Shown here: positions 14,930 through 21,429 of the stretch, piece after piece
Position numbering within the stretch: the stretch's first letter is position 1
Layout of the letters: the number at the start of each line of letters is the position of its first letter
Assembly: GCF_028368975.1 (NCBI RefSeq)
Contig: NZ_JAQNDM010000002.1
Span: 8,860,425-8,924,424 of the forward strand
DNA: 64,000 bases
Origin: Stigmatella ashevillena
GTDB taxonomy: Bacteria; Myxococcota; Myxococcia; Myxococcales; Myxococcaceae
Reading direction: 5' to 3'
Notes under the pieces: model-generated
The model's database searches: none
The model's input: only the letters and a program-made list of their open reading frames with translations
Told to the model about the DNA's origin: nothing
Program-made: the position numbers and the translations under genes

Positions 14930-15805
14930 TCAGGCACTGTCCTCGGGAACCTCGGGGGCCGGACTGGCAGAGGGGCGCTCGGGCTCGACGACCTGGATGT
15001 GCTCGATTTCGCCCCCCAGCAGCTTCAGCACCGAGCGCACCGCGGGGTGGGAGCGGACCTTCCCCTCGGTGCTCTGCGTGTGCGCGGCGCGGGCCTGGGA
15101 GTCCTGCTCGGCGAGGCTGATGGTGGAGGCCGCCACTTCGGCGGTGGCTTCCTCCACGGTGAGCTTCATGGGCCGGCCGAAGTGCTCTGTGAGCGCCTTC
15201 TCCACGAGGGTTTTGCCGAGGGCCGCCCCGATGGTGGTGCGGTGGAACGCCGCCGCGGGAACGTAGGCCACGCCCACCTCGCCTGGGCGCAGCCACAGCA
15301 GCCGCCCATTGGCCAGGGAGGTGCCATGCCGGGTGCTGGCGCTGCGGACGGTCTCCACCGCTGCGCGCCAGCGATCGGCCAGGGGGAGGGCCGGGTTGTC
15401 CCTGCCTCGGGCCACGGGCGGGGGCGGTGCCTCGGGCTCGGGTTCTTCCCCGGGCAGACAGTCCCCGGAAGCACAGCCTTCGGCCGAGCCTTCCTCGGCA
15501 AAGAGGCGCTCATCGACGCTGTCGTCCACGCTCTCGGGCTTGCGCACGTTGGTGAGCCGCACCACGGGAGCAGGTGCGGTGACGCGCGAGAGCGGGGTCG
15601 CTACGGCGGGAGCGGGTGGGACAGGGGCAGCCTGGACGGGAGCAGCCTGGACAGGGGCAGTCTGGACAGGGGCAGTCTGGACAGGGGCTGCCGGGACGGG
15701 AACGGGACGGGGAGGCTCGGGGGGGCGCTCAGACGCGAAAGTTCGAGGGACCGGAGCGACCTCCGGACGCTCCGGACTGGGACTTCGCTGCGCCGTCTCC
15801 GGCAG
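14930..15805 (-). CDS. dnaX: dnaX 3' part, tau-specific C-terminal region in a shifted frame
   Basis: This reading frame is open from 15805 (just after a TGA at 15806-15808) to the stop at 14930. It encodes a Pro-rich linker with five APVQ repeats, then a folded domain (ADRWRAAVETVRSASTRHGT, RTTIGAALGKTLVEKALTEH, GRPMKLTVEEATAEVAAS) as expected for the tau-only end of the DNA polymerase III clamp-loader subunit. It is one base downstream (+1) relative to the upstream dnaX frame; the two overlap for about 77 bp (15729-15805). It has no convincing start or ribosome-binding site of its own. Either a +1 frameshift joins them, the gene is mutated, or one base is wrong in the sequence. Confidence 0.75.
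   Translation of the reverse strand: MPETAQRSPSPERPEVAPVPRTFASERPPEPPRPVPVPAAPVQTAPVQTAPVQAAPVQAAPVPPAPAVATPLSRVTAPAPVVRLTNVRKPESVDDSVDERLFAEEGSAEGCASGDCLPGEEPEPEAPPPPVARGRDNPALPLADRWRAAVETVRSASTRHGTSLANGRLLWLRPGEVGVAYVPAAAFHRTTIGAALGKTLVEKALTEHFGRPMKLTVEEATAEVAASTISLAEQDSQARAAHTQSTEGKVRSHPAVRSVLKLLGGEIEHIQVVEPERPSASPAPEVPEDSA
15614..15688 (-). repeat. Five tandem 15-bp units in dnaX linker
   Basis: Five head-to-tail 15-nt units (consensus GCCCCTGTCCAGACT on the minus strand) encode APVQT/APVQA repeats in the linker of the tau-specific part of dnaX. Units 1 and 2 are identical, the others differ by one to three bases. Because the unit is a multiple of three, copy-number changes would alter linker length without changing frame. 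Confidence 0.9.
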
Positions 15806-16955
15806 TCAAACCCTGGGCGAGCCGGTCCACCTTGGCCAGGAGGTCCGGGATGCTGCTGGACGGGGAGAGCTGGATGGCCTTGAGCAGCGCCATCTCCAGC
15901 GCGAGCCGGGGCTGGGCCGCGCGGGCGACGTCCCACACGCAGCCATGCACGATGTCGAACAGGCGGGCGAGCTGGGCCGAGTCCGCCTCCTGGGCCAGGG
16001 CGAGGAGGGCCTTCTGCTCGGACTCCGCCAGCTCCGCGGGGGCCTCGCCCACGGCCTTGGTGACGAAGAGGTGGCGAAGCTGGAGCGCCAGCTCCTCCGC
16101 GAGCCGCTTCAGGTCCAAGCCCCGGTTGAAGATCTCCTCCACGCGCTCCAGCACCTTGCGCGCGTCCTTGCGCACGAGCGCCTCGGCGAAGTCCTGCACC
16201 ACGGTGCGGTCGATGGCGCCCAGCGCCTCGGCCACGGACTCATCGGTGGGGTGGGCGCCGCACGAGGCGAGCACCTGGTCCAGGAGGCTGAGCGCATCGC
16301 GCATGCCGCCTTCGGACTGACGGACCACCAGGGACAGGGAGCGGTCCGAGATGCCCGCGCCTTCCGCCTCGCAGATCTGCTTGAGCCGCTGGAGCATGCG
16401 CGCGGCAGGGATGCGGCGGAAGTTGTGGCGCTGGCAGCGGGAGAGGATGGTGTCCGGGAGCTTGTGCGCCTCGGTCGTCGCGAAGATGAACTTCACGTGT
16501 CCGGGTGGCTCCTCCAGCGTCTTCAGGAGCGCGTTGAACGCGGCCCCCGAGAGCATGTGGACCTCGTCGATGATGTAGATCTTGTGCCGGTCACGCTGCG
16601 GCAGGTACTTGGCGTTCTCGCGGATCTCCCGCACGTTCTCGACGCCGTTGTTGGACGCACCGTCGATCTCGGCCACATCGACGGAGGTGCCCGAGGTGAT
16701 CTCGATGCAGGCCCGGCACGTGCCGCAGGGGCTCGCGGTGGGGCCCTGCTCGCAGTTGAGGGCCTTGGCGAGCAGGCGGGCGGCCGTCGTCTTGCCCACC
16801 CCGCGAGGGCCGCAGAACAGGTAGGCGTGAGCCACCCGGTCCATCTTGATGGCGTTCGCGATGGTCCGGACGATGTGCTCCTGTCCGGTCATGTCGTCGA
16901 AGGTCTGCGGGCGCCATTTGCGTGCGAGGACGAGGTAACTCATGGGGATGATCAT
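15729..16955 (-). CDS. dnaX: DNA polymerase III subunit gamma/tau, N-terminal ATPase part
   Basis: 408 residues. AAA+ domain: LARKWRPQTFDDMTGQEH start, Walker A GPRGVGKTTAARLLAKALNC, four-Cys zinc module (CEQGPTASPCGTCRAC), Walker B/DEVHMLS, and sensor 1 IFATTEAHKLPDTILSRC; then domains II and III to about residue 365. It stops at 15729 (…SGPSNFRV) inside a Pro/Ser-rich linker, the position expected for a gamma-length product. The tau-specific remainder is encoded in another frame immediately downstream. Loads the sliding clamp in the replisome. In E. coli the zero frame gives tau and -1 slippage gives gamma; here the zero frame gives the short form. Confidence 0.95.
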   Translation of the reverse strand: MIIPMSYLVLARKWRPQTFDDMTGQEHIVRTIANAIKMDRVAHAYLFCGPRGVGKTTAARLLAKALNCEQGPTASPCGTCRACIEITSGTSVDVAEIDGASNNGVENVREIRENAKYLPQRDRHKIYIIDEVHMLSGAAFNALLKTLEEPPGHVKFIFATTEAHKLPDTILSRCQRHNFRRIPAARMLQRLKQICEAEGAGISDRSLSLVVRQSEGGMRDALSLLDQVLASCGAHPTDESVAEALGAIDRTVVQDFAEALVRKDARKVLERVEEIFNRGLDLKRLAEELALQLRHLFVTKAVGEAPAELAESEQKALLALAQEADSAQLARLFDIVHGCVWDVARAAQPRLALEMALLKAIQLSPSSSIPDLLAKVDRLAQGLTAGDGAAKSQSGASGGRSGPSNFRV

Positions 16956-20325: not shown

Positions 20326-20342
20326 ACAAAAACAACAAACGA

Positions 20343-20429
20343 CGGAGGGGGTGGGATTCGAACCCACGATACCCGTTAAGATATACACGCGTTCCAGGCG
20401 TGCGCCTTCAACCGCTCGGCCACCCCTCC
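20343..20429 (-). tRNA. tRNA-Ser(GGA)
   Basis: 87 nt with a long variable arm. Acceptor GGAGGGG/CCCCTCC, T arm GTGGGTTCGAATCCCAC, anticodon GGA in loop CTGGAAC. Discriminator G, CCA not encoded. Reads UCC/UCU. Confidence 0.97.
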
Positions 20430-20442
20430 AAGACACAGAGAG

Positions 20443-20529
20443 CGGAGAGCGTAGGATTCGAACCTACGGTACCGTTGCCGGTACGCCTGATTTCGAGTCA
20501 GGTGCCTTCGACCACTCGGCCAGCTCTCC
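20443..20529 (-). tRNA. tRNA-Ser(CGA)
   Basis: 87 nt, class II. Acceptor GGAGAGC/GCTCTCC, anticodon stem CCTGA/TCAGG with loop CTCGAAA giving CGA, T arm GTAGGTTCGAATCCTAC, discriminator G. Reads UCG, a common Ser codon in high-GC genomes. Confidence 0.96.
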
Positions 20530-20535
20530 AAATAT

Positions 20536-21000
20536 TCACTTGTCGCGCTTCTTCTCGCGCAGCCGCTCGAAGAAGCCCTTGAGAAGCTGGCGGCTCTCGT
20601 CCGCCAGAATGCCACTTGTCACCTGAAGCCGGTGGTTGTGTCGAGGCTCCTCAACCAGATTGTAGAGCGAACCGGCCGCGCCTGCCTTGGGATCCAGGGT
20701 TCCAAACACCAACCGGGTGACCCGGCCCTGAACCATGGCACCTGCGCACATCGCGCAGGGCTCCAACGTCACATACAGCGTGACACCGGTGAGCCGCCAT
20801 GCACCCAGCGATCGGGCTGCCGCATCGAGCGCGAGCAGCTCTGCGTGTGCAAAGGGGTGACGGTCGATTTCCCGGCGGTTGAAGCCTGTGCCGATGACCT
20901 GGCCTTGATGGACCGCGACCGCGCCGACGGGAACCTCTCCGAGGGCCTCGGCTTCCCGCGCCAGCGCAAGCGCCTGCTGCATGAAAGCCTCGTCACTCAT
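20536..21000 (-). CDS. tadA: tRNA adenosine-34 deaminase TadA
   Basis: 154 residues, full length. The zinc deaminase motifs are clear: HAE (FAHAELLAL) and PCAMC (EPCAMCAGAM), with the proton-shuttle Glu in HAE. TadA converts A34 to inosine in tRNA-Arg(ACG), whose gene lies 24 bp upstream on the same strand. The ORF ends 7 bp before tRNA-Ser(CGA), so the gene sits inside a tRNA array and may be part of the same transcript. Confidence 0.96.
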   Translation of the reverse strand: MSDEAFMQQALALAREAEALGEVPVGAVAVHQGQVIGTGFNRREIDRHPFAHAELLALDAAARSLGAWRLTGVTLYVTLEPCAMCAGAMVQGRVTRLVFGTLDPKAGAAGSLYNLVEEPRHNHRLQVTSGILADESRQLLKGFFERLREKKRDK

Positions 21001-21024
21001 GAAGAGGTGCCGCGAGAAAGAGAG

Positions 21025-21098
21025 CGCTCCCTGGAGGATTCGAACCTCCGGCCTTCGGATTCGTAGTCCGACGCTCTATCCAGCTGAGCTAAGGGAGC
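21025..21098 (-). tRNA. tRNA-Arg(ACG)
   Basis: 74 nt. Acceptor GCTCCCT/AGGGAGC, D arm TAGCTCAGCTGGATAGAGC, anticodon loop CTACGAA, T arm GGAGGTTCGAATCCTCC, discriminator G. Anticodon ACG is the substrate of TadA (A34 to I34), encoded 24 bp downstream. Confidence 0.97.
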
Positions 21099-21130
21099 AT
21101 GTCTTTCGACGCCGCTACAACGATAAGTGG

Positions 21131-21217
21131 CGGAGAGAGAGGGATTCGAACCCTCGATACCCTTTCGAGTATGCAGGTTTAGCAAACCTGTGCCTTCAGC
21201 CTCTCGGCCATCTCTCC
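21131..21217 (-). tRNA. tRNA-Ser(GCT)
   Basis: 87 nt, class II with long variable arm. Acceptor GGAGAGA/TCTCTCC, anticodon loop TTGCTAA within stem CAGGT/ACCTG, T arm GAGGGTTCGAATCCCTC, discriminator G. Reads AGC/AGU. Confidence 0.97.
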
Positions 21218-21261
21218 AACTTTTCTCTGTCAAAGAACCGCACAAGGCAAGCACAAAACAT

Positions 21262-21348
21262 CGGAGGAGGTAGGATTCGAACCTACGGAGGGCTTTCACC
21301 CTCTGCGGTTTTCAAGACCGCTGCCTTCAGCCGCTCGGCCACTCCTCC
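21262..21348 (-). tRNA. tRNA-Ser(TGA)
   Basis: 87 nt, class II. Acceptor GGAGGAG/CTCCTCC, anticodon stem GCGGT/ACCGC with loop CTTGAAA giving TGA, T arm GTAGGTTCGAATCCTAC, discriminator G. Reads UCA and wobble partners. It is the closest tRNA to serS, whose stop codon lies about 80 bp away. Confidence 0.97.
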
Positions 21349-21429
21349 ACTTCAAGGACCGCACGGCCCGCCAAATGCGCGGGGCCGCCCTTCTACCTCA
21401 TTCTTCGCCCATTGCAATGGGGATGTGGC

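Follow-up and report, generated by a model that had tools for sequence, protein, structure and literature searches.

A conserved TTT-C site and upstream hairpin point to programmed +1 frameshifting in dnaX of Stigmatella ashevillena and its family

Frameshifting in dnaX is a textbook case, and tau, one of its products, links the clamp loader to the polymerase. In Escherichia coli, a −1 shift at A_AAA_AAG makes gamma, with a stem-loop downstream and a Shine-Dalgarno (SD)-like sequence upstream. Here, we describe dnaX in a 64,000-nucleotide stretch of the Stigmatella ashevillena genome (contig NZ_JAQNDM010000002.1, positions 8,860,425 to 8,924,424; hereafter the window), where the gene is divided between two reading frames of the minus strand. 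Frame 0 encodes a gamma-like product, recognized by TIGR02397 at 449.5 bits and by Pfam PF13177, PF22608, and PF12169, and the tau-specific tail lies in the frame that is +1 relative to it, open from 15805 and closed by a stop at 14930–14932. An initial annotation, made from the sequence alone, had already placed the end of a gamma-like zero frame at 15729 and an out-of-frame tau tail beyond it, and both placements held. The features of the locus are listed below, in window coordinates.

15729–16955, minus strand: dnaX frame 0, gamma-like product of 408 amino acids (aa) counted from the first ATG (16955), comprising the AAA+ ATPase, the lid, and domain III
15751–15775, minus strand: upstream hairpin of 8 base pairs (bp) with a loop of 9 nucleotides (nt), ending 10 nt 5' of the TTT codon
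15759–15764, minus strand: loop sequence GGAGGT of the hairpin, which ends 18 nt 5' of TTT and is the complement of ACCTCC, found at the 3' end of the 16S rRNA gene in this genome
15735–15741, minus strand: putative shift site C_TTT_CGC, with the TTT codon at 15738–15740, the next base at 15737, and proposed +1 re-pairing on TTC at 15737–15739
15729–15731, minus strand: frame-0 stop TGA, 2 sense codons past TTT
14930–15739, minus strand: tau-specific tail in the +1 frame, 269 codons from the shift plus the stop, for a predicted tau of 674 aa in total
14933–15388, minus strand: C-terminal domain, whose AlphaFold model (predicted local distance difference test, pLDDT, 88.5) most resembles E. coli tau domain V

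The split is a property of the family and not of this genome alone. We searched 96 genomes of the family, 90 of which had a readable dnaX end; five were left out for a weak match or none, with nothing at 1e-40 (G008, G052, G081, G082, and G086), and one for a contig end (G013). In the 90 readable loci, the frame-0 stop follows TTT after 2, 3, or 7 sense codons (77, 11, and 2 loci, respectively), and tblastn found the tail in the +1 frame in 80, in frame 0 in one, and could not place it in nine, so that a +1-encoded C-terminal part is conserved across species in 80/90. Identity of the frame-0 part to the window falls as low as 61% across 89 of these relatives. The initial annotation had named +1 recoding, a mutation, or a sequence error as possible causes, and had singled out, as evidence against recoding, an uninterrupted frame in relatives that lack a shift site. 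Continuous dnaX genes were found only in other families, and it is because the split and the site are conserved in 90/90 readable family genomes that we choose +1 recoding at TTT-C, the first of the three options, over mutation or error.

At the site itself, all 90 loci have CTTTC, its TTT being a frame-0 codon, and the codon after TTT is CGN in 89 of them and CTG in one. Codon usage was analyzed in 89 aligned open reading frames (ORFs) of the family, with L097 (198 nt) left out. The Phe codon at the site is TTT in every one of these, compared with 24 TTT versus 887 TTC (2.6%) elsewhere in the same genes. The preceding codon is most commonly AAC (65 ORFs), CCC (16), or ACC (5), and never begins with T. 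From 51 tRNA matches in this genome, 36 distinct tRNAs were read, and only one of these, with anticodon GAA, is a tRNA-Phe; cognate re-pairing of the tRNA in the peptidyl (P) site is accordingly available in the +1 frame at a position that does not vary. Two candidate steps had been proposed by the initial annotation, which left the choice between them open. TTT-C stood, whereas both the codon CCC and the base that follows it are variable in CCC-T, which is ruled out as a shift site for want of conservation among the family loci. Elsewhere in the window, at 20341–21349, lies a cluster of four tRNA-Ser genes and one tRNA-Arg (ACG) gene, the last of which is expected to decode the CGC of the shift site.

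The initial annotation was right to consider a recoding site but missed the hairpin upstream of it. The pattern GGRGCG-NNN-GGRGGT-CGCYCC, followed by exactly 11 nt and then CTTTC, is present in 90/90 readable loci, and the six-bp core of the stem is paired in all 64 distinct sequences of the element. Over the full 8-bp stem, 94.5% of positions in these 64 sequences form standard pairs, a value that drops to 33%–47% when the partner strand is slid out of register. Stem cells changed on both sides number 30, versus 11.5 in shuffles, and none of 500 shuffles reached as high. For the hairpin segment of the window, the predicted folding energy is −19.2 kcal/mol (z −2.1). Downstream of the frame-0 stop, bases vary among relatives.

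Constraint on rare synonymous codons also singles out this element. Among 327 codon columns tested, 17 retain a non-preferred codon in at least 85% of the rows with that residue, and 12 of these lie outside the element; when only rare codons are considered (background below 12%, at least 85% conserved), four columns remain, GGA, GGA, GGT, and TTT, all inside it. Windows around codons 124–130 and 153–159 exceed the element in synonymous identity, on preferred codons. The 64 sequences, with the window's own included, also served to build a covariance model of the element (41 nt), with which we searched 195 genomes of the phylum under stricter filters; weak elements may be missed in this way. The only match in this genome (E 9.4e-13) lies in dnaX, and overall there were 90 matches at E ≤3.8e-7, one in each of the 90 family genomes with a readable dnaX. 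The next matches were in G082 (9.6e-7), where the surroundings were read and are not dnaX-like, and in G055 and G064 (both 2.5e-5); that of G081 had an E of 0.005, and the best in any genome of another family, among the matches listed, was 0.0035. An Rfam search of 15600–15900 returned no dnaX element, only a lone chance match (E 0.89). The G055 and G064 matches (G055:C47:340592-340636 and G064:C21:76099-76143) are second matches of the model and lie outside dnaX, as do some weaker ones; the two have equal scores and are perhaps at orthologous places.

Homology of the tail to the in-frame DnaX C-termini of other families was found by BLASTP, with L262 matching at 38% identity over 175 aa (E 1.8e-28), L254 at E 1.2e-22, and others more weakly; Pfam and PDB sequence searches gave nothing useful for it. 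A fold model for which 19 tails were used was aligned by VIA-align to 5fku_E, which is tau in the E. coli polymerase complex (Z 8.6, 105 residues, root-mean-square deviation 2.5), to 5fkv_E (Z 8.4), and to 2aya, the solved tau C-terminal domain (Z 8.4), and Foldseek likewise ranked 5fku_E first. The C-terminal domain of the tail is predicted to share its fold with domain V of E. coli tau. Domain V is the alpha-binding part of tau (PMC11470591). Between the two conserved parts, the linker is highly variable in length among relatives, and in many of them (several of the loci L016–L059) the +1 tail frame is still open where the locus ends, after more than 490 codons, versus 269 codons in the window. 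A tandem repeat occupies the window's linker at 15607–15701 (a 15-bp unit, 5.3 copies at 15619–15697) and reads as PVQTA/PVQAA-like repeats in the +1 frame.

We propose that dnaX in this family is a two-product gene expressed by programmed +1 frameshifting, in which movement of tRNA-Phe from UUU to UUC would make tau, normal decoding would make gamma, and the upstream hairpin would stimulate the shift; we put the probability of this reading at about 0.92. Ribosomes that decode in the standard way would terminate at 15729 and release gamma. When UUU (15738–15740) occupies the P site, a fraction of ribosomes would slip one base forward, the tRNA-Phe (anticodon GAA) moving to UUC, and would decode GCG next; translation after the shift would cross the Pro-rich linker and enter the C-terminal domain of tau. 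Calculated masses of the two predicted products are near 44 kDa for gamma and 72 kDa for tau. The hairpin could refold near the mRNA exit, at a distance of 10–12 nt from the P site; its SD-like loop would then lie close to the anti-SD of the ribosome, and the refolded hairpin may favor forward movement.

Several observations weigh against this proposal or against parts of it. The codon that would occupy the aminoacyl (A) site, CGC, is the commonest Arg codon in these ORFs (1821/2945), so a slow A-site codon is not evident, and a second Phe tRNA may be present among the approximately 15 tRNA matches outside the 36 read. Changes on both sides occur in only 3 stem pairs, a number reached by 161 of 500 shuffles. 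The 18 nt between the SD-like loop and TTT are unlike the spacings at known SD-stimulated sites, which are 3 nt for +1 and 9–14 nt for −1 (PMC5009743). In a 70S system, +1 shifting has been stimulated by upstream hairpins, with a stable hairpin reaching approximately 60% of the SD effect, but only with RF2 absent and at a stop codon (PMC6321510). The fold match of the tail is modest, with a Foldseek E of only 0.041 and a comparable score for the unrelated SirA (4tps, Z 8.3 over 78 residues). Finally, the tail of L060 is in frame 0, behind a stop; compared with two near relatives, a C run in the linker of this locus is off by a single C, and the exception is likely an assembly error.

That one-base difference, together with the repeat-rich linker, is also what could be said for a sequencing error or a recent inactivating mutation as the cause of the whole split, an explanation to which we attach next to no weight given that the identical split and site occur in 90/90 readable genomes and in many assemblies, including single-contig ones. 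Translational coupling, in which ribosomes would terminate and re-initiate to yield the tail as a separate protein without any fusion, would be in keeping with the SD-like GGAGGT lying 5' of the stop. We nevertheless regard it as very improbable, since no start is conserved in the +1 frame: the first ATG, GTG, or TTG (counted from −10 codons) is scattered, the commonest offset (+10 codons) is found in only 7/90 loci, and 3/90 have no such codon within 100 codons. Moreover, both parts share one frame in other families, and re-initiation would leave the fixation of TTT-C unexplained.

The remaining alternatives place the change of frame elsewhere or credit it to another stimulus. Transcriptional slippage, with a base gained or lost in the mRNA as in Thermus dnaX, is known in dnaX genes with poly-A runs (PMC3711429, PMC5009743), but the invariant site here is only T3, the element has no conserved long run, and slippage would explain neither the hairpin nor the fixed TTT; we consider it extremely unlikely. 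We hold the same view of a −2 shift, which is identical in frame arithmetic and has a precedent in phage Mu (PMC3498833), as the triplet two bases back is ACT, CCT, or GCT in the family and would be poor for tRNA-Phe, whereas +1 gives the cognate UUC. A programmed +1 shift stimulated by the nascent peptide GAPGGRS instead of by RNA is unlikely, if less far-fetched, in that these residues are conserved too. However, rare synonyms are fixed at the paired or SD-like positions, the loop codon CCN varies (synonymous identity 0.30), the stem co-varies, and in two +1 copies of dnaX in the sister family f8, described below, the stem is unrelated and encloses a GAGGGAG loop.

Sites of the form UUU_Y have been described as +1-prone in bacteria, with the YopN-TyeA fusion named as an example (PMC5009743). 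The site in dnaX shares with it the tetranucleotide, the +1 direction, and a bacterial cellular gene as host, although the gene is another one, and this precedent lessens the novelty of the site itself. A close likeness is found in the influenza A PA-X site, UCC_UUU_CGU, for which a P-site slip model has been argued with peptide evidence (PMC3498833). Both have a C-ending codon before UUU_C, CGN in the A site, and a +1 direction, and no downstream stimulator is evident in dnaX either, none having been sought systematically. In contrast to PA-X, the site here belongs to a bacterial cellular gene, UUU is mostly preceded by AAC or CCC and not by UCC, CGC is common and not rare, and a hairpin with an SD-like loop is conserved upstream.

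Compared with E. coli dnaX, the gene is identical, with gamma and tau coming from one gene and an SD-like sequence upstream, but the A_AAA_AAG heptamer and the −1 direction are both absent from the window's dnaX, where a +1 shift at TTT-C would be needed for tau and the hairpin lies upstream. Two-ORF dnaX genes with a −1 offset have been reported as 17 genes in 12 genera, 12/17 with poly-A stretches (PMC3711429), and tau has been noted as a possible frameshift product, with Chlorobium named (PMC5009743). These resemble the present family in that gamma is the frame-0 product and tau requires a frame change, and differ from it in their offset, which is +1 here, and in that the element contains no A run (7–10) (PMC3711429).

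The best-known bacterial +1 shift, in prfB (encoding RF2), uses CTT_TGA with an SD sequence 3 nt upstream. It shares with the proposed dnaX shift the direction, re-pairing in the P site, and an internal SD-like sequence, which in dnaX is 18 nt away, within a hairpin loop, and accompanied by CGC as the A-site codon. This genome's own prfB (L286, G000:C2) carries the classic site, GGGGGCAT CTTTGAC, as do the prfB genes of all five other family genomes inspected (L283, L284, L285, L287, and L288).

Beyond the family, dnaX was sought in 74 of 99 genomes and matched in 64, five of which belong to the sister family f8. Among the other 59 matches, 49 have a single open frame of at least 517 aa, one (G150) is continuous, one (G174) ends at 460 codons with the other frames closed, and eight are undecided on account of contig ends, partial matches, or, in G163, an odd end. 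In a quick tree (66 sequences, with 29 of the 90 family loci chosen and L271–L273 left out), the window's family stands next to f8 with a Shimodaira-Hasegawa-like approximate likelihood ratio test (SH-aLRT) value of only 85, and f7 and f9, whose dnaX is continuous, outside. The five f8 genomes hold six dnaX copies of two kinds. L259 and L270 have TCC_TTT_CGC or CCC_TTT_CGC (UCC only in L259) with the tail in +1, and their upstream stem, which closes the GAGGGAG loop, is unrelated to the family hairpin. In L260, L267, and L269 (C_CCT_TTT) and in L253 (C_CCT_TTC), the tail is apparently in −1, the frame of L253 being less sure because of a C8 run upstream. L259 and L270 are two different dnaX genes of one genome (G156:C807 and G156:C247), whose 6% contamination may be the source of the pair.

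In f7, represented by a single genome, dnaX is continuous and has an in-frame TTT_CAA at a comparable place, the only TTT in 110 codons; the other continuous dnaX genes inspected have no in-frame TTT in the comparable stretch. A +1 slip there would reach TAG two codons on, and gamma would then be made by the shift, a lead from the sequence of one genome. It is conceivable, at somewhat less than even odds in our estimation, that the family's element is a PA-X-like +1 site whose efficiency comes from a hairpin refolding behind the ribosome, as a natural bacterial example of +1 stimulation by an upstream hairpin, that the SD loop may let anti-SD pairing compete with this refolding and so tune the ratio of tau to gamma, and that use of the site has changed along the lineage, with +1 leading to gamma in f7, +1 to tau in the window's family, and −1 in part of f8.

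In the literature searched, which lacks most subscription journals, the dnaX frameshifts found in the available text are −1 shifts or transcript slippage, and no report was found of a +1 shift in dnaX or of any dnaX frameshifting in Myxococcus. Judged from sequence, tau, a core subunit of the replisome, seems to require a +1 shift throughout the family. To the single bacterial UUU_Y case named in a review (PMC5009743), this adds a family-wide one in a core gene, together with an upstream hairpin that is conserved and a sister family with a seemingly flipped direction, and these two features make stimulation by upstream structure and change of direction directly testable.

With regard to genomic context, the two ORFs that follow dnaX resemble, and from their sequence alone we take them to be, ybaB and recR. 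A second contig of this genome (G000:C1), approximately 0.94 Mb long, carries several tRNA genes and is perhaps a second replicon.
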